Source: Streptomyces sp. Ag109_O5-1 | Lineage (GTDB): Bacteria > Actinomycetota > Actinomycetes > Streptomycetales > Streptomycetaceae | Length of the DNA stretch: 64,000 nucleotides | NCBI RefSeq assembly: GCF_003814875.1 | Contig: NZ_RKQF01000001.1 | Location: forward strand, 11,160,001 to 11,224,000 | Reading direction: 5' to 3' | In this document: positions 5,642 to 15,081 of the stretch, piece by piece | Numbering within the stretch: the stretch's first letter is position 1 | How the letters are laid out: each line of letters begins with the position of its first letter | Notes under the pieces: model-generated | The model's input: the letters and a program-made list of their open reading frames with translations, nothing else | Told to the model about the DNA's origin: nothing | Database searches by the model: none | Position numbers and translations under genes: made by a program

Positions 5642-6505
5642 GGTCCCGGCCCAGAGTCCAGGGGGAGGGGCACCCGAAAGAAGTCCGCGATGTCGGCTGC
5701 GCGATCGCTGGGGTGGAAGGGCGCGCGCCCGGCCAGGAGGTGGCAGACCGGATTCCGGGAAGCAACAGCCAACGGCCCTTGTCGAAGCGGACGTTGGCGG
5801 GCCGAGCGAGCCGACGCGGTACCCGTACAAGCCGCGCGCGACCAGTCGTAGCGGCTCTGCTCGACCAGCTTGCCCGGGACAGCCGTACCCCTCATTGCCC
5901 ACGCGCTGTGGTGGTGACCGGTCGGCACGGTCCTGACCCTGATGTTCAACAGGGCTGGTGATGGCGGCCGCGGTGATCTACACCGGGTGGGAGGTGGAAC
6001 CTGCTCGAGGCCGGGGGCCCCAAGGAGGACGGCGCTCTACGCGAAGCGACCCGCCTGGTCACTTGGTAGGCAGTGCCGTGAACGCCGCCAGGGTGTGGGT
6101 GACGAAACCGCGCAGTCGGCGGTCCATGCCGAAGTTCGGGTCGTTCATCATGCTCAGCAGCTATATCCAGGGGGCGATGTCCCCCCGGTACCCGCTTGTT
6201 CTGCGCTTCCAGTCGGCGGGCGCAGGGGCGGCCCCTGCCCACGGTCCTGAGCTGGGTGAGTGAGCTGACCCCGGCGGCGCCCGCCGCAGCCGTGTGCGCG
6301 GTGTGCAGTTGGTCGTCGGTCTGCTCCGCGAGGAGGCCCGGCAGCTGGACGCTAGGCCAGGCCGGTCAGGTTCGCGCGTACGGTCAGTGGGTTGGTGAAG
6401 GACAGCACGCCGTCGGGCGCCGGCCGGTGAGTGGTGCCGGCAGGCTTTTTCCGCGTCGCCCGCGAGGGCGGCGTTGAGAGGGCGGACCGCGGCCGAGGTC
6501 CAGGA
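5642..6505. other. No intact gene; decayed sequence
   Basis: About 860 bp without a convincing gene. Open frames on both strands are short and lack ribosome binding sites. On the minus strand a stretch around 6060-6170 reads like the end of a real protein (MDRRLRGFVTHTLAAFTAL) but is cut off after some 30 residues by stops and frame changes, so this is best described as unidentified gene debris between two better-defined relics. Confidence 0.45.
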
Positions 6506-6509
6506 GCCG

Positions 6510-7039
6510 TGGAAGGTACGCCGTCATGAACTCACCGAGCAGGGGTGGGAGTTACTCGCTCCGCTCATACCGCGGGCCTCGGCTGGTCGCCCACGGGTGG
6601 AGCAGCGCCTGGTGATCAACGGCATGGTCTACAAGATCCGAACCGGGATCTCCTGGCGTGACCTGCCGGAACGCTGCGACCCGTGGCCGACGGTCTGCAC
6701 CTGCTTCCGCCGCTGCACCTCGACGGCATCTTCACCGGGCGGCCCTGCGGCAGATGCAGACCCGGGCTGATACAGCCGGAGACATCGACTGGTTGGTCCA
6801 GATCGACTCCACCATCGTCCGCGCCCATCAGCACGCCGCCGCCACCGGCCGAAAAGGGGGACCCGCCGGCAGGACGAACCGGCTGATCACGCCCTCGGCC
6901 GATGCCGAGGCGGACTGGCTACCAAGACTCGCCTCGACTGCGACGGCCGAGGACTGCCGCTGGCCGTCCTGTGCACGGCCGACCAGCGCCACGACGCGAT
7001 CTACGCACGCACGCTTCTCAAGCGCATCCGATGCGGGTT
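6510..7039 (+). mobile_element. IS5-family (DUF4096-type) transposase relic
   Basis: The first frame (from about 6513) gives the IS5 N-terminal domain: HELTEQGWELLAPLIPRA, then INGMVYKIRTGISWRDLPER. The frame is lost near 6690 and resumes as LRQMQTRADTAGDIDWLVQ, IDSTIVRAHQHAAATGRKGG, then shifts again into IHLACDG- and RHD-type motifs that are only partly legible. The first DDE aspartate (IDSTIVRAHQH) is visible, but the last third and terminal inverted repeats are missing. The relic ends directly at the stop codon of the DUF1330 gene, suggesting an old insertion or deletion joint at about 7039. Confidence 0.8.
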
Positions 7040-7411
7040 TTAAGGCTTGAGCACCGCCAGTACATCGTCGAGCGAGACGTTGGCGGGGTCACTCATATCG
7101 GAACCATCGAACGTCTGCCAGATATAGGACGCCGTCCCGTCCTCCCGCAGCGGATGCAAATCGGCCAAGTCCGGATCATCCCGGAAGCTGTTGAACGCCT
7201 CTTCGGACTCCCATTCAACGAGAAACAGAACCTGCCGTGGCGCGAGGTCACCGGCTACGCTACCTCGGAAACGGCCAAACGCCACGATTCGACCACCATA
7301 CTGCGGGGCCACTTCGGGAAGGCGGCTGAAATACGCAAGGTACTTCTCCACGTCAACCACGTCAAACATATTCAGGGCGTAAAACTTCTTCTTCTGCGAA
7401 TTTGCACTCAC
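7040..7411 (-). CDS. DUF1330 domain-containing protein
   Basis: A protein of about 123 residues whose body (YALNMFDVVDVEKYLAYF, GGRIVAFGR, LVEWESEEAFNSFRDDP) fits the DUF1330 ferredoxin-like fold, related to the dimeric alpha-beta barrel (EthD/ABM) group. The GTG at 7411 is preferred to a TTG two codons upstream because an AGAGGG sequence lies 9 nt before it. DUF1330 function is unknown; some related folds are monooxygenases or isomerases. It is the only intact gene in a stretch of relics. A second, shorter DUF1330 gene of different sequence lies at 62.2 kb. Confidence 0.75.
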   Translation of the reverse strand: MSANSQKKKFYALNMFDVVDVEKYLAYFSRLPEVAPQYGGRIVAFGRFRGSVAGDLAPRQVLFLVEWESEEAFNSFRDDPDLADLHPLREDGTASYIWQTFDGSDMSDPANVSLDDVLAVLKP

Positions 7412-7998: not shown

Positions 7999-8877
7999 TT
8001 ACGCCACCGTGTTCAGCAAGTCGGCCAGTACGTCGGGCCGTTCCAGGGCGATGAAGTGGCCGGCCTTCGGCACCTGTGTGAAGTCGGCGGCGGGCAGCAG
8101 CTTCTTGTTGGCCTCGCGGTCCGAGGGGCGGGACCAGTCGTTCTCCCCGTAGACGAGGTGGACGGGGGCCTTGACCTCGGGGTAGTGCGAGCGGGCGGCG
8201 ATGAGGCTGGGCAGGTTCTGGTACACGCCCCGGGCGACGGTCGGGTAGCCGGGGCGCCGGCCCACCTGGAGCAGCTCGTCCACGTAGTCCTCGCGCAGTG
8301 CGCTCCTGTCGCCCAGGCCGCCCTGAAGGATCTTGCGGAGGGCGGGCTTGGGCTCCACCCCGGCGATCACCGGGCCCACACCCGGGGCGAGGACACCGCC
8401 GACCACCACGCGGGCGAGGAGGCTGGAGCGGGCGATCCCGCCGCGGAAGTCGTAGGTGTTGACCGCGACGACGCGCCGGACCCGCTCCGGCAGATCGGCG
8501 GCGGCGGTCAGGGCGAGCACCGCCCCCATGGACTCCCCGACCAACGTCACGTCGTAGAGGTCGAGTTCGGTGAGGAGCCGCTCGACGCCCGTGCGCATGG
8601 CCGGCTCGTCGTAGGAGGCGCCGGGCACGATCTCGGAGTAGCCCATCCCCGGCAGATCGAGGGCGTACACGGTGTACCGGTCCGCGATCAACGGGATCAG
8701 GAGCCGGAAGTGCTCGGCCTGGGTGCGCACGGTGTGCAGCAGGACCAGAGGCGCACCGCTGCCCGCCTTGAGGTAGCGCAGTCTTCCCTCGCTGCCGTGG
8801 TGTCCTGCGCGCGGCGCGATGGTGTGACTGGTGGTCCCCGCGATGTGAATCGTGGGACGTGATTCCTGACTGGCCAT
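7999..8877 (-). CDS. Alpha/beta fold hydrolase
   Basis: A 292-residue alpha/beta hydrolase. Nucleophile Ser in GESMGA, acid Asp in YGENDW and His in KAGHFIALE form the expected triad; the HG-type oxyanion strand is LVLLHTVRT, and LDLPGMGYSE is the standard loop. ATG at 8877 follows GGGAG by ten bases; the longer frame only overlaps the SDR gene. It lies 19 bp after the SDR on the same strand, so both are probably expressed from the palindrome-controlled promoter near 9.63 kb. No signal peptide. Substrate unknown; esterase, lactonase or haloalkane-type activity are all possible. Confidence 0.9.
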   Translation of the reverse strand: MASQESRPTIHIAGTTSHTIAPRAGHHGSEGRLRYLKAGSGAPLVLLHTVRTQAEHFRLLIPLIADRYTVYALDLPGMGYSEIVPGASYDEPAMRTGVERLLTELDLYDVTLVGESMGAVLALTAAADLPERVRRVVAVNTYDFRGGIARSSLLARVVVGGVLAPGVGPVIAGVEPKPALRKILQGGLGDRSALREDYVDELLQVGRRPGYPTVARGVYQNLPSLIAARSHYPEVKAPVHLVYGENDWSRPSDREANKKLLPAADFTQVPKAGHFIALERPDVLADLLNTVA

Positions 8878-8896: not shown

Positions 8897-9598
8897 CTAC
8901 TTGGCCAGTTGGGGGTACAGGCCGGCCAGGTCGCCGGCGAGGCCCGCTTTGACCTGGCGCGTGGTGTCGTCGGCGAGCACCTCGTACGCGCCCGTCTCGA
9001 CCCCGTCGAGGGCGAGGGCGGCGACGTCACGAGGGTTCGACTTGGGTGCGTCGACGTCCGCCGCCAGGTCCGTGTCGACGTAGCCGACGTGCAGTCCGGT
9101 GACGGCGATGCCGCGCGGCTGCAGCTCCAGGCGCAGGGAATTGGACTGCGACCACAGGGCGGCCTTGGACGCGCTGTAGGAGCCGCCGAGCGCCAGCCAG
9201 GAGAGTACGGAGTGCACGTTGAGGATGTGGCCGCCGCCGTTGCGCTCGATCACCGGCACGAAGGCCCGGGTGAGGAGCAGCGGGCCGTAGAAGTTGGTCT
9301 CGAACTCCCTGCGGACGTCGTCGACCGGGGAGTCGAGGAAGGACGCGCCTACCGCCGCACCCGCGTTGTTGATCAGCACGGTGACATCCTGCGCCTGCGC
9401 CACGGCCGCCGCCACGGAGGCCGGGTCGGTGACCTCCAGCGCCACCGGCACTGCGTCGGGGTGCGTCACGCTGCGCGGGTCACGGGCCGTGGCGTACACC
9501 TTGGCGGCGCCGCGCGCGTACAGCTCTTCCACCAGTGCCTTGCCGATGCCCCGGCTGCCGCCGGTGACGAAGACGTTGGCGCCCTTCAAAGTAGTCAT
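8897..9598 (-). CDS. SDR-family oxidoreductase
   Basis: A 233-residue SDR: TGGSRGIG near residue 12, NNAGAAVG near residue 80, catalytic Ser in NVHSVLSW and YSASK in the expected place. The ATG at 9598 is preceded by GGAGG. The start lies only 21 bp below a pair of 14-bp palindromes shared with four other promoters in this region, so it belongs to the putative TetR regulon together with the following alpha/beta hydrolase. Likely an NAD(P)H-dependent carbonyl reductase or alcohol dehydrogenase on a small xenobiotic or signalling molecule; the substrate is inferred only from context. Confidence 0.92.
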   Translation of the reverse strand: MTTLKGANVFVTGGSRGIGKALVEELYARGAAKVYATARDPRSVTHPDAVPVALEVTDPASVAAAVAQAQDVTVLINNAGAAVGASFLDSPVDDVRREFETNFYGPLLLTRAFVPVIERNGGGHILNVHSVLSWLALGGSYSASKAALWSQSNSLRLELQPRGIAVTGLHVGYVDTDLAADVDAPKSNPRDVAALALDGVETGAYEVLADDTTRQVKAGLAGDLAGLYPQLAK

Positions 9599-9619: not shown

Positions 9620-9657
9620 AAACCGATCGGTTTCCACCACAGTAAACCGATCGGTTT
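9620..9657 (-). promoter_or_regulatory. Paired TetR-type operators upstream of the SDR-hydrolase operon
   Basis: Two perfect copies of the palindrome AAACCGATCGGTTT lie at 9620-9633 and 9644-9657, 24 bp centre to centre. Between them, on the minus strand, TTTACTGTGG gives a TACTGT -10-like hexamer. The distance corresponds to a little over two helical turns, consistent with two dimers binding the same face. Repression by one or both nearby TetR proteins is inferred from the shared sites. Confidence 0.8.
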
Positions 9658-10166
9658 CCGGGCGCAAGCTCATCGACGGAGTCAGTCGCGTGGGGTCGCG
9701 GCCTCAGGGCGTCGTTCCGCCCCAGGGTGGTGAGCTCTCCACCCGTGTGTCCGGCCTGGTGGATGTCGGCGTCGGTCGGGCTGAGTTGGAGTTTGAGGCC
9801 GAGTTTCCCGACGGTGTCGAAGAGCCACTCCGGAACGGCGTCTGGGGTGAGGTGGAGCAGAGCGGGAGGCAGGGGGGCGCCCTCGGCGCTGGAGGGGGCG
9901 CTGTGTGTGCGGGCGGGGGAGTGGTCGGAGGGGTGGGTCCCCGGAGCGGTTGGCGGTGGAAGTCTCCGGTGGGGTGTCCGCGTGTCACCGGCGCCTCGCT
10001 CGCGGGGGTCGGTCGGCGCCAACGGGACCGACTTGTCGGCGGGTTCAGCGGTCGTCGCGTTGGTCGATCCCTGGTCGCGCGTTGAGGCGGCATCGGCGGC
10101 CTGTGTGGGTGTCGGCATTGTCGGGTCGGTCACAGGTCGGGGACCACCTCTCCACTTGCGCCATGG
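9658..10166. other. Divergent intergenic region, no confident gene
   Basis: About 500 bp between the SDR operon and the exporter gene. A minus-strand GTG frame starting at 10133 is rich in Pro/Thr/Ala and then reads TPDAVPEWLFDTVGKLGLKL, but it runs on through the operators into the SDR gene, has no conserved motif I recognise, and has only a distant purine-rich sequence upstream. It may be a remnant of a lost gene; nothing else is visible. Confidence 0.4.
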
Positions 10167-10204
10167 AAACCGATCTGTTTTTCTAAGTGGAAACAGATCG
10201 GTTT
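10167..10204 (+). promoter_or_regulatory. Paired operators upstream of the DHA2 exporter
   Basis: AAACCGATCTGTTT (10167-10180) and AAACAGATCGGTTT (10191-10204) each carry one mismatch from the regional palindrome, and the two are exact reverse complements of each other, so the whole site is symmetric about its centre. Spacing is 24 bp as at the SDR promoter. A TCTAAG -10-like sequence lies between them. The ATG is about 40 bp downstream. Confidence 0.75.
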
Positions 10205-10245
10205 CCTACCAGTGTTCGGCCTATGACCAGCGACAAAGGGAAAAG

Positions 10246-11745
10246 ATGACTGCCACCTTCGACCGTGGGGCGCCCGCCTCGGGGAAAACGGACTCGGGCT
10301 GGCGCGGCTCACATGCCGTGCGCTGGTGGGTGCTTGTCGTGCTGGGCACGGCGCAGCTCATGGTCACGCTCGACGCGACCGTCGTGAACATCGCGCTGCC
10401 CGCGGCGCAACATGACCTCGGTTTCAGCGACGGCAGCCGGCAGTGGATCATCACCGGCTACGCCCTGGCGTTCGGCAGCCTGCTGCTGCTCGGTGGCCGG
10501 CTCGGTGACCTGTTCGGCCGACGTACGACCTTTGTGACCGGGCTGATCGGTTTCGCGGGCGCATCGGTCCTCGGGGGTGCGGCCACCAGCTTCGATGTCC
10601 TCGTCACGGCACGTGTGGCCCAAGGGCTCTTCGCCGCGCTGCTCGCGCCTGCGGCACTCTCACTGCTCAGTGTGACCTTCACCGACCCGACCGAGAGGCC
10701 GAAGGCGTTCGGCATCTTCAGTGCGCTGGCCGGTGCGGGCGGCGCGATCGGGCTGCTGCTCGGCGGCATGCTCACCGAATGGGCGTCGTGGCGCTGGGTG
10801 ATGTACGTGAACGTCGTCTTCGCGGCCGTAGCGCTGGTCGGTGCGGTGCTGCTGCTGGCCAAGCCTGCGGTCACTCAGCGGCCCAAACTCGACATTCCCG
10901 GCACCGTCGTGGTGAGCGCGGCGCTGTTCGCCATCGTCTACGGGTTCGCGCACGTCGAGTCCACCAGTTGGACCGATCCGGTCACCCTCGGCTCCATGGT
11001 CGTCGGCGTGGTGCTGCTCGCGGTGTTCGTCTGGCTGGAGGCGAGGGTCGCGCATCCGCTGCTGCCGCTGCGACTGGTGCTGGACCGGACCCGCGGTGGT
11101 TCGTTCCTGGCGGTTTTCGTCATCGGTATGGGGATGTTTTCGATCTTCCTGTTCCTGACCTACTACCTGGAGGCCAGCATCGGCTACTCGCCGATCAAGA
11201 CCGGTCTGGCGTTCCTGCCGATGGTCGCCGGCATCGTTGCCGCGTCGACCATGGCGCCTTCGCTGCTGCTGCCCAGGGTCGGCCCGAAGATCGTGGTCAG
11301 CGCCGGCTTCCTGGTCGCCGCATCCGGTATGGCCCTGCTGACCCAGCTCAGGCTGGACAGCACCTACGCCGCCCACATCATGCCCGGTCTGATCCTGCTG
11401 GGGCTCGGTCTCGGTGGAGTGATGACCACCGCGTTCCAGGGCGCGACCGCCGGCATTCATCACGAGGATTCGGGCGTCGCCTCGGCGCTGATCAACACCG
11501 GCCAGCAGGTGGGCGGCTCGATCAGCACGGCGCTGCTGACCACCGTTGCCTCATCGGCCGCGACCGACTACCTGTCCTCGCGCAAGCCCGGCGCGCTGAC
11601 CGTGGCGCAGGCCGGAGTCGAGGGCTACACGGCCACCTTGGCGTGGGGTGCCGGGTTCTTCGTGGTCGGTGCTGTGCTCGCAGCGTTCCTGATACCGAAC
11701 GCGGCTCTGGCGCCGTCGGAGGGCGAGCCGGTGATCGCCCACTGA
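10246..11745 (+). CDS. DHA2-family MFS multidrug exporter
   Basis: A 499-residue major facilitator protein with about 14 predicted membrane helices, as in EmrB/QacA drug:H+ antiporters. Helix 1 contains LDATVVNIALPA, the DHA motif D1-like signature; LGGRLGDLFGRR is motif A in the loop between helices 2 and 3; and GAGGAIGLLLGG corresponds to motif C of helix 5, the antiporter motif. The ATG at 10246 follows AGGGAAA. Divergent from the SDR operon and under paired palindromic operators, it is probably the efflux component of the putative TetR regulon. A hairpin follows the stop. The exported compound is not deducible. Confidence 0.93.
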   Translation: MTATFDRGAPASGKTDSGWRGSHAVRWWVLVVLGTAQLMVTLDATVVNIALPAAQHDLGFSDGSRQWIITGYALAFGSLLLLGGRLGDLFGRRTTFVTGLIGFAGASVLGGAATSFDVLVTARVAQGLFAALLAPAALSLLSVTFTDPTERPKAFGIFSALAGAGGAIGLLLGGMLTEWASWRWVMYVNVVFAAVALVGAVLLLAKPAVTQRPKLDIPGTVVVSAALFAIVYGFAHVESTSWTDPVTLGSMVVGVVLLAVFVWLEARVAHPLLPLRLVLDRTRGGSFLAVFVIGMGMFSIFLFLTYYLEASIGYSPIKTGLAFLPMVAGIVAASTMAPSLLLPRVGPKIVVSAGFLVAASGMALLTQLRLDSTYAAHIMPGLILLGLGLGGVMTTAFQGATAGIHHEDSGVASALINTGQQVGGSISTALLTTVASSAATDYLSSRKPGALTVAQAGVEGYTATLAWGAGFFVVGAVLAAFLIPNAALAPSEGEPVIAH

Positions 11746-11753
11746 GTCTGAAT

Positions 11754-11773
11754 CCACCGCGGATGCGCGGTGG
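11754..11773 (+). terminator. Hairpin after the exporter gene
   Basis: Perfect 8-bp stem CCACCGCG / CGCGGTGG around a GATG loop, starting nine bases after the stop codon. No U-tract follows, as is common in high-GC actinobacteria. Confidence 0.55.
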
Positions 11774-12055
11774 ACCGCAACGAGCGGACAGGGAGAAATG
11801 CCCTGCCGCCCGCGTTGACTGGTGTTCTCGAGGTGCAGGTCGGCGAAGGAAGGCAGGGCTTCTCCGGGATCGCGCGTACTTCCACGGGCGCGATCCGTCC
11901 TCAGTGAACTGACCATCGCTGGTACCGGGCATCCGCAGTGTGGTCTGAATTTCCGAGGCTCGCGGGTGTGCTGGTCAAGGCGGCCGCGGTCGGCCTCGCT
12001 GGGGGCGCACCAGGAGCGTGGGCGGCGTCGAAGAGCACTCCCCGGCAAACGCCGT
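11774..12055. other. Intergenic, nothing recognisable
   Basis: About 280 bp between the exporter terminator and the first tetR operator. Short frames on both strands show no motif or ribosome binding site. Confidence 0.5.
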
Positions 12056-12095
12056 AAACCGATCGGTTTTCAGTTGGCCGGATTCGAGCTAACCT
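12056..12095 (+). promoter_or_regulatory. Operator and promoter of the first tetR gene
   Basis: A single palindrome AAACCGATCGGTTT at 12056-12069 overlaps a -35-like TTTTCA (12067-12072); after a 17-nt spacer comes TAACCT (12090-12095). The ATG is six bases after the -10, so transcription would begin at or next to the start codon, and no ribosome binding site is present: a leaderless, self-repressed gene is likely. Confidence 0.65.
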
Positions 12096-12101
12096 CGCAA
12101 T

Positions 12102-12671
12102 ATGACCACCGAGGCGAAGTCAAGTCCCCGAGAGCGGCTGCTGGAGGCGGCGGCCATGCTCACCTACCGAGACGGTGTCGGCATCGGCGTCGACGCGCTG
12201 TGCAAGGCGGCCGGGGTGTCGAAGCGTTCCATGTACCAGCTTTTCGAGAGCAAGGACGAACTGCTGGCGGCAAGCCTGGAGCAACGCGCCTCCGCCTATG
12301 TGGCGACGCTCCTGCCTCCGGCCGACGACAACCGTTCACCCCGCCGGCGGATCCTGCACGTCTTCGACCAGTTGGCAGCACATGCGGCTGCGCCCGACTT
12401 CATGGGCTGCCGGTACCTGGTTGTGCAGATCGAGCTCAAGGACCAGGGTCACCCTGCGAGTCGGGTGGCCCGCCAGGTCAAGGAGAACCTGACAGGCTTC
12501 TTCCGTGCCGAGGCCGAACGGGGAGGCGCGCGCGACCCGGAGCTGCTGGCCCGACAGCTGATCCTGGTCTTCGACGGCGCCAGCGCCCGCGCGGGAATCA
12601 AAGCCGACACGCCGGCAGGGCTGGTCGCTCCCACGGTGATCACCCTGCTCGATGCGGCCGGCATGCGCTGA
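12102..12671 (+). CDS. TetR/AcrR-family transcriptional regulator (copy 1)
   Basis: A 189-residue one-component repressor. The N-terminal helix-turn-helix is at about residues 27-50 (VDALCKAAGVSKRSMYQLF), followed by KDELLAA; the C-terminal ligand and dimer domain contains GCRYLVVQIELKD and ends LITLLDAAG-like. It is closely similar throughout to the regulator at 15.1 kb. A single regional palindrome overlaps its promoter, implying autorepression, and its divergent or downstream neighbours have paired copies, so it probably controls the SDR-hydrolase operon, the exporter and the 4Fe-4S protein. Cys at GCRYL could take part in sensing, but this is speculation. No Shine-Dalgarno; start fixed by homology with copy 2. 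Confidence 0.93.
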   Translation: MTTEAKSSPRERLLEAAAMLTYRDGVGIGVDALCKAAGVSKRSMYQLFESKDELLAASLEQRASAYVATLLPPADDNRSPRRRILHVFDQLAAHAAAPDFMGCRYLVVQIELKDQGHPASRVARQVKENLTGFFRAEAERGGARDPELLARQLILVFDGASARAGIKADTPAGLVAPTVITLLDAAGMR

Positions 12672-13007
12672 CGCATCACGTCGGCGAGAGGTCTCGGTGA
12701 GCGATGCGCTCCACGGGTGACCGCCGGCCTCCGGCGACCTGGGCGCATCCCATGGCGGCGCGCCCTTGCCTCCCGACGCTCGGAGGGACCCGGCCGTAAG
12801 GGCGTTGATGGGCGTGCGGTGAGCCATCAAGGCCGTGGTTTCGTCGACATCGTGCCCGGCCGCAGGGGCAAGGTCTCCCGGGCGTCCAGCCGACCCGGAA
12901 GGGTTTGTGGGGCTGGGCACCGATCGCCAGGCGATCGGTTGTCGACGTCCGTGTGGAAGTGGGCCGACATGTCGAAGAAGAGGCCCGCCGCTTGGTCTTG
13001 CGCACGG
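12672..13007. other. Intergenic, no gene seen
   Basis: About 340 bp between the first tetR gene and the operators of the iron-sulfur gene. No frame has a supported start or a recognisable motif on either strand. Confidence 0.5.
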
Positions 13008-13044
13008 AAACCGATCGGTTTACAGTAGTGAAACTGATCGGTTT
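13008..13044 (+). promoter_or_regulatory. Paired operators upstream of the 4Fe-4S reductase-like gene
   Basis: AAACCGATCGGTTT (13008-13021) and AAACTGATCGGTTT (13031-13044, one mismatch), centres 23 bp apart. The spacer TTACAGTAGTG is nearly the same as in the SDR promoter and contains a TACAGT -10-like hexamer, so a dimer on either site would block the promoter. Confidence 0.75.
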
Positions 13045-13091
13045 CTCGCTGTGAAGACGAGCCTGACCGCTGGGCTCACAAGGAGGTTCGG

Positions 13092-14213
13092 ATGACTGCC
13101 GGGCGCGACGCCGAGGGACAGTCTGTGGATCTCAGACTTCCGGCCAAACTGGCTGCGCACCCGTCGGTGAAGGCCGTCCTCGCTCGGCGTGCGGCCGGTG
13201 AGGCCGCGAGCCCACCGCCGGTGATCGACGCGGCCTGGCTGCGCGAGCTGTGCCTGGCGGCCGGCGCGGACGACGCGGCCGCGGTAAGCCTGGACCACCC
13301 CGATCTGGCCGGCGAGCGCGAGTACGCGCAGTCGGCGCTGCCCGGCACCCGCACCCTGATCGCGATGGCGGTCCGGATGAACCGCGACAACTGCCGCTCC
13401 CCGGCTCGCAGCGTGGCCAACCAGGAGTTCCACCAGACCGACGAGCAGGCCAACCATGCCGCCCGCAGCGTCACCCAGGCGCTCCAGGACGCCGGATACC
13501 GTGCGCTCAATCCGTCCGTCGGCTTCCCTCAGGAGATGGACCGCTTCCCCAGGGAGCGGATCTGGGTGGTGGCGCACAAGACGGTCGCGGTGGCCGCCGG
13601 GCTCGGCGTGATGGGTCTGCACCGCAACGTCATCCACCCGAAGTTCGGCAGCTTCGTCCTGCTGGTCACCGTGCTGGTGAACGCGGAGGTGAGCGAGTAC
13701 GGGCAGGCGCTGGACTACAACCCTTGTATCGACTGCAAGTTGTGCGTCGCGGCCTGCCCGGTCGGCGCCATCGCCAAGGACGGCGCCTTCGACGCCCTGG
13801 CCTGCACCACGCACAACTACCGCGAGTTCATGAGCGGGTTCACCGACTGGGCGCAGACCGTGGCCGACAGCGAGGACGCCGCCGACTACCGTTCCCGGGT
13901 CACCGATTCCGAGAGCGCCTCCATGTGGCAGAGCCTGTCCTCGCCCCCCGGCTACAAGTCCGGCTACTGCCTCGCGGTCTGCCCCGCCGGCGAGGACGTC
14001 CTCGGCCCGTACCTGGACGACCGCAAATCGTTCATGGACACCGTGCTGCGCCCGCTCCAGGAGAAGAAGGAAACGCTCTACGTCCTGCCGGGCTCCCACG
14101 CGCAGGAGTACGCCCAGCGCCGTTTCCCCCACAAGCCCGTCAAGGAAGTCACCGGCGGCTGGCAGCCTCCGGCTAAGCGTTCGGCATCCCCCGAGCGAGA
14201 GCAACGGACGTAA
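13092..14213 (+). CDS. 4Fe-4S double-cluster reductase-like protein (QueG / reductive dehalogenase-like)
   Basis: A 373-residue protein with a C-terminal ferredoxin module: Cys212, 215, 218 and 222 in CIDCKLCVAACP, then Cys238 and the pair Cys293/Cys297 in CLAVCPAG. The preceding domain (RTLIAMAVRMNRDN, HKTVAVAAGLGVMGLHRNV, PKFGSFVLLVTVLV) matches the cobalamin-binding barrel shared by epoxyqueuosine reductase QueG and reductive dehalogenases, including the GLG-x-MG-H-x-N and FGS-x-V-L signatures. No Tat signal or membrane partner, so a soluble cytoplasmic enzyme is expected. Strong AAGGAGG ribosome site. It lies under paired TetR-type operators and overlaps a broken membrane-protein gene. 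Housekeeping QueG is unlikely given its regulation and lack of HEAT repeats; a reductase for a xenobiotic is inferred. Confidence 0.8.
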   Translation: MTAGRDAEGQSVDLRLPAKLAAHPSVKAVLARRAAGEAASPPPVIDAAWLRELCLAAGADDAAAVSLDHPDLAGEREYAQSALPGTRTLIAMAVRMNRDNCRSPARSVANQEFHQTDEQANHAARSVTQALQDAGYRALNPSVGFPQEMDRFPRERIWVVAHKTVAVAAGLGVMGLHRNVIHPKFGSFVLLVTVLVNAEVSEYGQALDYNPCIDCKLCVAACPVGAIAKDGAFDALACTTHNYREFMSGFTDWAQTVADSEDAADYRSRVTDSESASMWQSLSSPPGYKSGYCLAVCPAGEDVLGPYLDDRKSFMDTVLRPLQEKKETLYVLPGSHAQEYAQRRFPHKPVKEVTGGWQPPAKRSASPEREQRT

Positions 14214-14886
14214 TGATCGGCATTCACCCCTTCCGCGTCCTGCGCGCCAACCCCGTGTGGATCGCCAACGGCGTCATCAAGGGCGTACTCGCGCTCCTGT
14301 TCGCCGCTTTCTACGTCGGCACCACATGGGACCACTGCGCCTGCACCGCCCGCTGATCCGGGCGACCCGGGTGCAGACCCTCGCCATCAGCAGCACCCTC
14401 ATGGCCGGGCTGTCCCTGCTGATGGGCGCCCTGGTCATGGTCGGGACGGTCTGCATCATGGGTATGGACGCCTCTCACCTGCCGTTGCTGTGGCTGTACT
14501 CGGTGTGCGCCGTCGCGGTCTCCGGGATCGGGGCGCTCGCCCTTCTCGCGGTCTTCGGTACGCCCGGCATGCTGGTCGTCGCGCTGGTCTTCATCGGGAT
14601 GGCGGTGCCGATGGCCGGGGCCGCCACCCCCATCCAGGCGCTGCCCGGCTTCTACCGCTTCTTCGCGGAGTTCGAGCCTCTGCGGCAGATCACCGGTGGC
14701 ATCCGCTCGATCCTTTACTACGACGCCCAGGGCGACGCGGGACTGACCCGGGGCTGGGTCATGATGGCAGCCGGCCTCGTGGCGGCAGCGCTGTTCGGCT
14801 TCGGCGTACTGGGGTGGTACGACCGCAAGGGGCTGCACCGTATCCCGGTGGACACGACGCCCGAGAAGGCGGCGGCTCCGGCGTAG
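14213..14886 (+). pseudogene. SNG1/YhgE-like membrane protein (DUF3533) with internal deletion
   Basis: An ATG overlapping the previous stop (TAATG) starts IGIHPFRVLRANPVW and one membrane helix (GVLALLFAAFYVGT), then stops at about 14356. In another frame the C-terminal membrane part resumes at LIRATRVQTLAISS and continues through about five helices (LLMGALVMVGTVCIMG, LPGFYRFF, RQITGGIRSILYYDA) to 14886. Members of this YhgE/Pip-like group have one N-terminal helix, a large external domain and C-terminal helices; the external domain is missing here. A deletion near 14330-14340 with frameshift explains this. It was the second gene of the iron-sulfur operon and is now probably inactive. Confidence 0.7.
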
Positions 14887-15041
14887 CGCAGGCCACCCTC
14901 CGCATCCCCCAGGGCGGGCCATCACTCGGAGTGGCCCCGGTGTGTCGCCCTGCCGGGGACGACAGGCACGCACACCGCAAGGGCTCGGCGACGGTCTTTC
15001 CCCCAGGCTGTCGCCGAGCTTCCGCGAGGACACCACCCCGG

Positions 15042-15081
15042 AAACCGATCGGTTTTCATTTGCTTCTCTCTGGGTTAACCT
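15042..15081 (+). promoter_or_regulatory. Operator and promoter of the second tetR gene
   Basis: Palindrome AAACCGATCGGTTT at 15042-15055 overlaps TTTTCA (15053-15058); 17 nt later TAACCT (15076-15081) ends six bases before the ATG. Site, promoter elements and start are spaced exactly as at copy 1, including absence of a ribosome binding site. Confidence 0.65.

Follow-up and report, generated by a model that had tools for sequence, protein, structure and literature searches.

A candidate TetR repression regulon marked by a 14-bp palindrome in Streptomyces sp. Ag109_O5-1 and its relatives

LmrA and QdoR of Bacillus subtilis are both TetR-family proteins. They are two repressors, the latter also called YxaF, and both control a single regulon to which lmrAB, yxaGH and yxaF belong (title of Hirooka 2007, as given in PMC8481877); in the accessible part of the text of PMC8481877, qdoI has two operators and qdoR one, and quercetin releases QdoR. 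SAV576 and SAV577 of Streptomyces avermitilis are encoded by adjacent, similar TetR genes, and the available portion of PMC4051647 describes their products as competing for the same sites and repressing each other. SAV151 of the same species is a TetR repressor whose target operon encodes a dehydrogenase and a hydrolase (PMC10933834, in part). The genes that TetR proteins repress in Streptomyces are, according to Ahn et al. (PMC3511530, in part), mostly enzyme genes that lie divergent and no more than 200 bp away. The locus described here is a 64,000-nucleotide stretch of Streptomyces sp. Ag109_O5-1 (“the window”; contig NZ_RKQF01000001.1, positions 11,160,001 to 11,224,000), which very probably contains a TetR repression regulon built like that of LmrA/QdoR, with the palindrome AAACCGATCGGTTT as the operator of the twin repressors TetR1 and TetR2 and of TetR3, a paralogue encoded at 2.588 Mb. 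The type of control is already known, and the locus is a new example of it, not new in kind.

Palindromic sites in the window and the genome

Eight copies of the 14-bp palindrome with at most one mismatch were found in the 64,000 bases, upstream of five transcription units, in exact agreement with the first-pass annotation of this DNA. The scan covered both strands, tolerated up to three mismatches and returned exactly these eight matches; dinucleotide shuffles of the window held a mean of 0.81 palindromes, and none of 100 reached eight. The units served are a minus-strand short-chain dehydrogenase/reductase (SDR) gene with an alpha/beta hydrolase gene, a DHA2 exporter gene, tetR1, a 4Fe-4S (Fe-S) protein gene with a broken DUF3533 gene, and tetR2 (Table 1). 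Both DHA2 sites and the second Fe-S site carry one mismatch; the other copies are perfect. The paired sites are spaced by 24 bp at the SDR and DHA2 genes and by 23 bp at the Fe-S gene, and tetR1 and tetR2 have a single operator each, its end 32 nt before the ATG. An alternative ATG upstream of its operators is possible for the SDR frame; the ATG at 9598, where the start of its paralogues aligns, was adopted. As read by eye, -10-like hexamers 17 nt from a TTGCGC -35 lie between the paired sites of the SDR and Fe-S genes, and the DHA2 sequence is a poor match; the -10 annotated between paired sites recurs in relatives. A further inverted repeat with a similar core (ACCGATCGCC / GGCGATCGGT) is present at 12919-12939, some 70 bp ahead of the Fe-S operators.

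The whole 12.0-Mb genome contains 16 copies, 10 perfect and 6 with one mismatch, and eight of the 16 are outside the window; the reversed pattern, used as a control, has no copy. All 16 lie upstream of a tetR, SDR, exporter, Fe-S or DUF3533 gene. Outside the window, two sites precede an SDR paralogue (91%) at 2.5625 Mb, one precedes TetR3 (77%) at 2.5886 Mb, a pair lies 140 bp upstream of an intact DUF3533 gene at 2.590 Mb, two with a spacing of 35 bp precede a third SDR gene (SDR3, 75%) at 10.753 Mb, and a one-mismatch site precedes a truncated TetR of a related subfamily (type B, below) at 10.453 Mb (L008:7144-7604), whose match ends at residue 122-123 with the DNA-binding part retained. This truncated gene directly precedes an open reading frame (ORF) that by eye resembles an ABC permease. 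The restriction of the motif to five promoters is thus a property of the window and not of the genome, and the module is not “self-contained”, as had been proposed, since half of the sites stand elsewhere at paralogues of the same genes. Scattered copies, which the first-pass annotation had named as counting against a regulon, exist in a formal sense only: those outside the window with at most one mismatch all precede the same gene families. By sequence, the regulon is real, and it is both conserved and dispersed.

The 2.56-2.59 Mb stretch is, from its predicted gene content, a second and partly decayed copy of the module (with parts at L005:5157-5267, L005:9317-9747 and L006:13333-16361). Its SDR, TetR3, DUF3533 and second-type TetR genes are open and its hydrolase gene is broken, while a 37-residue DHA2 match and a 38-residue match to a second SDR remain as remnants. 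No match to the Fe-S gene was found in it at E 1e-8 in a search of four stretches of this genome.

Ten further genomic sites have two mismatches, and seven of them were examined in their context. Those at 951486, 9925521 and 5235366, inside predicted genes, at 7539033, inside an open frame, and at 2577147, at a predicted ORF start, were rejected as targets. The site at 3492623 (L012:4624-4637) lies about 50 bp before a predicted minus-strand gene (L012:3868-4575) without a Pfam match. The one at 2587365 is probably a weakened regulon site, because it is flanked by a complete second-type TetR frame (L006:13512-14036, 79% to its relative) and the 38-residue second-SDR remnant.

Promoter layout and co-occurrence in relatives

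Related loci were fetched by TetR, retaining the best 80 of 377 confirmed matches, which gave 77 loci, or 78 with the window. They are mostly from Streptomyces, with others from Streptacidiphilus and Actinobacteria and single ones from Saccharothrix, Trebonia, Nonomuraea, Pseudonocardia and Actinomadura. Each of the 77, and the window too, contains a site with no more than one mismatch. Of the tetR genes for the 92 proteins longer than 180 amino acids (counting this genome; L066, with 97 amino acids, was excluded from the 93 rows), 86 have an operator at a distance of exactly 32 nt upstream of the start and 91 at 31-33 nt if two mismatches are allowed. The hexamer TAACCT is found 6 nt before the start in 85 of the 92, and the transcript should be leaderless; the commonest -35 is TTTTCA (43/92), and the last operator bases are the first bases of this -35.

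The rule of two sites at structural genes and one at tetR, proposed from the window, recurs throughout: one site is seen in 90 of 93 tetR assignments, and two in 73 of 79 SDR-like, 43 of 44 DHA2 and 33 of 35 Fe-S assignments. Pairs are spaced by 24 bp in 30/37 SDR rows, 26/28 of a second SDR, 26/29 DHA2 and 19/20 hydrolase rows, by 23 bp in 26/29 Fe-S rows and by 23-26 bp in 5/5 DUF3533 rows. Among the 146 gene-pair assignments with a spacing of 27 bp or less (a few pairs between divergent genes, e.g., in L064, are counted twice), 102 show TTGC 17 nt upstream of the -10 position, and the TAnnnT that comes next is seen in 114. Shifting the register by up to six bases either way yields 0 to 5 rows, except for 30 at one base further out (-1), 27 of which are DHA2; no DHA2 row has TAnnnT in the expected register. 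From these TTGC and TAnnnT registers across relatives, operator 1 is predicted to occupy the spacer between -35 and -10, and operator 2 to follow immediately on the -10, covering the predicted start. The operators are thus placed, by consensus, to block RNA polymerase, overlapping the -35 at tetR and the spacer and start region at the targets. The flanking sequences vary in relatives while the sites stay in register with the -35 and -10.

The individual operators are also conserved in their departures from the palindrome. DHA2 pairs keep AAACCGATCTGTTT in 24 of 26 cases, AAACAGATCGGTTT in 20 and both in 20, with the inner half-sites altered symmetrically; the second Fe-S site, AAACTGATCGGTTT, is retained in 20 of 26, and in 20 of 30 SDR pairs neither site has a mismatch. 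Such gene-specific operator variants suggest tuned affinities.

The motif follows the repressor across the genus. In 295 genomes, this one included, TetR (presence set at E 1e-50) is found in 83 and the perfect motif in 89: both occur in 81, TetR only in 2, the motif only in 8 and neither in 204. The 83 TetR genomes hold 325 perfect copies and the 212 others eight, and the reversed control pattern has none in all 295. The Fisher p value for co-occurrence is 2e-60, uncorrected for the relatedness of the genomes. This argues for a strong link between motif and TetR, and the common regulon annotated in the window is borne out by its recurrence in relatives. Up to four TetR copies occur in one genome. 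Only one of 72,556 plasmid records carries a relative (59%), which gives little support for mobility by plasmid.

Twin repressors and target genes

Both twins carry a TetR_N domain (37.2 and 38.2 bits; cut-off 24) and have the palindromic operator at their own promoter. They are 79% identical overall, with 89% in the DNA-binding part and 75% in the remainder. In a tree of the TetR proteins, they belong to separate clades of 26 rows (TetR1; support 100/96) and 60 rows (TetR2; 95/93), with six rows outside both, including the genome's own TetR3. Non-streptomycete proteins (Saccharothrix, Nonomuraea, Actinomadura, Pseudonocardia and Trebonia) nest among streptomycete rows with mixed support. The annotated twins recur in relatives, with one TetR1 and one TetR2 in 12 loci, the window included; 65 of the 77 fetched loci have a single full-length TetR within the fetched stretch, some stretches stopping at contig ends. 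On the tree, the twins are old paralogues that are jointly kept in a minority of loci.

Residues S40-K41-R42-S43 of the predicted recognition helix are invariant in all 92 proteins. Because these predicted recognition residues are identical, and the same operator stands at both genes, the twins should share one DNA specificity, although shared binding is a prediction. The clades are told apart (at 0.8 or more) by just seven positions. Five of these fall outside residues 1-56, and they are the only ones among the 132 positions of the ligand domain that do so. The ligand domains of the twin pairs are 75-86% alike in 11 of the 12 loci; the twelfth (L112) gives 17% owing to an indel. A close solved relative of TetR1 is 3jsj, a putative TetR-family regulator (phmmer E 1.7e-91, residues 1-188 of 189), presumably SAV143 of S. 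avermitilis; the entry is a structure only and has no function in its name.

The more distant type B comprises 44 TetR matches at 55-66% identity, of which 20 loci of 20 genomes were examined. An SDR gene (59-81%) lies within the stretch in 15 of the 20, each with a site pair, spaced by 30-35 bp in 14 and by 25 bp in one. A single one-mismatch site is found near tetR in 12 of the 20, and an SDR pair only in five. TetR with SDR looks like the ancestral core, and this genome seems to keep the remains of a B system in the SDR3 pair, with its 35-bp spacing, and in the truncated TetR at 10.45 Mb. An argument from the helical phase of the paired sites was dropped, since the B-type SDR spacings range over 30-35 bp in 14 of 15.

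The predicted proteins of the 77 loci and the window were clustered into families, and an operator was counted if it lay within 260 bp. A simple gene caller was used that missed some genes (e.g., the second TetR at L006:13512-14036), and the family counts are lower bounds. TetR is present in all 78 loci (operator at 87/89 genes), hydrolase in at least 40 (upstream operator at 21/40), SDR in at least 35 (34/35), the second SDR in at least 30 (29/30), DHA2 in at least 28 (26/28), Fe-S in at least 26 (19/26) and the second-type TetR, divergent from the second SDR, in at least 21 (17/21). These seven families exceed 13 of the 78 loci, and all have operator-bearing members. DUF3533 proteins occur in at least 13 loci, five with an operator; of two NmrA-like families, one is found in at least five loci, all with an operator, and the other in at least 13, none with one. 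L065, from Streptomyces sp. NRRL S-646, is among the fullest clusters, with SDR, DHA2, TetR1, Fe-S, DUF3533, TetR2 and the second TetR/second SDR pair. Another alpha/beta hydrolase is encoded near the module in four relatives (L109:5512-6441, L133:5540-6481, L087:8173-9159 and L121:14683-15747), two of them with a site within 260 bp upstream.

By its sequence matches, the Fe-S protein resembles QueG and the reductive dehalogenases, and no activity can be assigned to it. It scores 52.3 bits against the QueG equivalog TIGR00276 (cut-off 200) and 23.9 bits against the reductive dehalogenase model TIGR02486 (cut-off 160.35), and seven cysteines of the Fe-S region are invariant across 22 aligned sequences; its AlphaFold model was unusable, with a mean pLDDT of 45.4. 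The start codon of the DUF3533 gene and the Fe-S stop codon share one base (14213). Upstream of the module, at 6474-7050, transposase-like ORFs were seen by eye, a possible insertion scar.

Table 1. Genes, operators and predicted promoter elements of the window
Feature	Position	Strand	Evidence
Alpha/beta hydrolase, 292 aa (amino acids), gene 2 of SDR operon	7999..8877	-	Pfam Abhydrolase_1 2.7e-21
SDR oxidoreductase, 233 aa	8897..9598	-	NCBIfam NF006119 368 bits (cut-off 249); two genome paralogues with paired sites
SDR operator O2, over predicted start site	9620..9633	.	Perfect palindrome
SDR -10 TACTGT	9639..9644	-	TAnnnT, same register, 35/35 SDR rows with pair spacing <=27
SDR operator O1, within -35/-10 spacer	9644..9657	.	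Perfect palindrome
SDR -35 TTGCGC, 17-nt spacer	9662..9667	-	TTGC, same register, 35/35 SDR rows with pair spacing <=27
DHA2 -35-like TTGCGC	10156..10161	+	TTGC at 17-nt register 0/29 DHA2 rows; one base further out 27/29
DHA2 operator O1, AAACCGATCTGTTT	10167..10180	.	Identical variant in 24/26 DHA2 pairs at 24 bp
DHA2 operator O2, AAACAGATCGGTTT	10191..10204	.	Identical variant in 20/26 DHA2 pairs at 24 bp
DHA2-type MFS exporter, 499 aa	10246..11745	+	MFS_1 4.8e-49; EmrB/LmrA-type models below their cut-offs
tetR1 single operator, overlaps -35	12056..12069	.	Perfect; position identical in 86/92 tetR genes
tetR1 -35 TTTTCA	12067..12072	+	Most frequent hexamer at that register, 43/92
tetR1 -10 TAACCT, 6 nt before ATG, leaderless mRNA predicted	12090..12095	+	TAACCT in 85/92
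TetR repressor 1, 189 aa	12102..12671	+	TetR_N 2.5e-9; solved relative 3jsj E 1.7e-91
Fe-S gene -35 TTGCGC, 17-nt spacer	12998..13003	+	TTGC, same register, 27/29 Fe-S rows
Fe-S gene operator O1	13008..13021	.	Perfect palindrome
Fe-S gene -10 TACAGT	13021..13026	+	TAnnnT in 29/29 Fe-S rows
Fe-S gene operator O2, AAACTGATCGGTTT	13031..13044	.	Identical variant in 20/26 pairs at 23 bp
4Fe-4S protein, QueG / reductive-dehalogenase-like, 373 aa	13092..14213	+	TIGR00276 4.2e-14, reductive dehalogenase 3.4e-5, both under cut-off; 5d6s QueG 7.8e-11
Broken DUF3533 (YhgE/Pip-like) membrane gene, two separate pieces	14213..14886	+	Match residues 1-40 and 247-429 of intact paralogue, different frames
tetR2 single operator, overlaps -35	15042..15055	.	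Perfect palindrome
tetR2 -35 TTTTCA	15053..15058	+	Register as in relatives
tetR2 -10 TAACCT, 6 nt before ATG	15076..15081	+	Register as in relatives
TetR repressor 2, 189 aa	15088..15657	+	TetR_N 1.2e-9; 79% identical to TetR1

Proposed mechanism, alternatives and known systems

The sites, their registers, their conservation and their co-occurrence with TetR are properties of the sequences themselves, and from them we infer binding, repression, ligand release and a role in detoxification. In the absence of ligand, one TetR dimer would sit on each 14-bp site. Two dimers at the enzyme and exporter promoters, over the -35/-10 spacer and the predicted start, would exclude RNA polymerase firmly, and a single dimer overlapping the -35 at the tetR promoters would give a looser self-limitation. 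Binding of a small molecule would release the repressors, so that the SDR, the hydrolase, the Fe-S reductase, the DHA2 exporter and, elsewhere in the genome, the DUF3533 transporter would be induced together, and their products might modify and export the releasing compound or a related one. With their identical predicted recognition residues, TetR1 and TetR2 would bind all sites, including each other's promoters. Reductases, a hydrolase and an exporter under TetR control fit the modification and export of a small compound, and small-compound handling is probably the role of the regulon; the “detoxification or signal processing” and “two sensors” of the first-pass annotation are plausible.

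Several observations weigh against this reading. The loci were picked via TetR itself and are mutually related, so that their counts are not independent events, and the promoter hexamers were assigned by consensus. In L106, the 60 nt upstream of TetR2 contain no site, three of the 20 type B loci (L142, L145 and L156) have no site at up to one mismatch, and two of the 83 TetR genomes lack the perfect motif. The DUF3533 site pair at 2.590 Mb falls within the 3' end of another predicted ORF. That parts of the system are dispensable is shown by this genome itself, where the window's DUF3533 gene and the hydrolase gene at 2.56 Mb are broken and the TetR at 10.45 Mb is truncated. Lastly, eight genomes carry one motif copy each without a TetR at E 1e-50. 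These eight would also suit a different regulator that binds the palindrome, with the tetR genes merely among its targets; 17 of the 21 genes for the second-type TetR likewise have an operator nearby, and binding by TetR1 and TetR2 is deduced from sequence. Yet 86 of the 92 tetR genes have the operator at one fixed place in their promoter, and co-occurrence is near-perfect, with 204 of the 212 genomes without TetR having no copy; such a regulator is therefore very improbable. That the palindromes are chance occurrences or a mobile repeat without regulatory role has a next to negligible probability. The module is indeed duplicated in the genome, but with 0.81 copies expected in the window, no shuffle reaching eight, no reversed copy in 295 genomes and sites that hold their register while the flanks vary, this explanation is refuted as far as sequence allows.

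Given a TetR regulon, two readings address why there are two repressors. They may be redundant, the extra copies only setting the repressor dose and being retained through repeated duplication and cluster transfer, and the chances of this fall a little short of even. Up to four copies per genome, the partly decayed second cluster and the non-streptomycete hosts scattered with mixed support among streptomycete rows all fit it, but redundancy alone does not predict old clades with one of each kept in 12 loci. Those two supported clades and their joint retention would rather suit twins that are not equivalent and respond to different ligands (or form heterodimers) on one operator set, forming a two-input gate whose full opening requires the release of both. 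The greater divergence of the twins outside the DNA-binding part, where five of the seven clade-separating positions also fall, points the same way; against it stand ligand domains that are 75-86% alike in 11 of 12 pairs and separated at only 5 of 132 positions, and the single full-length TetR in the stretches of 65 of the 77 fetched loci. On balance, non-equivalence is rather unlikely. A fuller and more speculative version, slightly less likely still, is that an ancient TetR pair with one DNA specificity and two ligands acts as a conserved two-input gate whose output is graded per gene by operator variants (perfect double sites at the SDR, symmetric inner-half changes at the exporter, a one-sided change at the Fe-S gene and single sites at tetR), and that A-type TetRs took over targets (SDR3 at 10.75 Mb) of the older B-type TetR that is truncated here.

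The proposed TetR regulon gives a sharply defined set of sites and genes to a TetR group with 3jsj as a solved relative and with no function found in the literature searched, where no recognizable paper on this TetR appeared. The specificity of the operator lets candidate regulon members be listed across the genomes of the genus from the pattern alone. The conserved twins and gene-specific operator variants are a natural test of whether paralogous sensors serve as backup or as a logic gate, and the operators together with the ligand, once identified, could yield an induction system for Streptomyces.

A literature search for the exact palindrome, with most subscription journals outside its reach, found nothing, and for the core CCGATCGG with TetR the only TetR-operator study noticed among the matches listed was that of Thermus TTHB023 (PMC7022988, in part). 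SAV151, with its dehydrogenase and hydrolase targets, was rejected as the regulator, as the sites TCTGACATGGTGTCGTGTCAGA and GAACTGACACTCTAGCTTGTCAGTTC given in the accessible text of PMC10933834 do not match AAACCGATCGGTTT. The Fe-S protein shares the core and the CxxCxxCxxxCP cluster motif of QueG and the reductive dehalogenases and matches their models and the solved QueG, but remains far under the family cut-offs. SAV576/SAV577 resemble the present system as twin TetRs, which there compete; however, in the parts of PMC3742746 and PMC4051647 available, their consensus is CCRTACRVYGTATGS and their targets are others. The 16 solved relatives of TetR1 found at E 0.001 include none named QdoR or YxaF. 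The likeness to LmrA/QdoR, as far as the accessible descriptions go, lies in the regulatory logic of twin repressors, here predicted to share one operator set, with two operators at the target and one at the regulator; the gene set differs.

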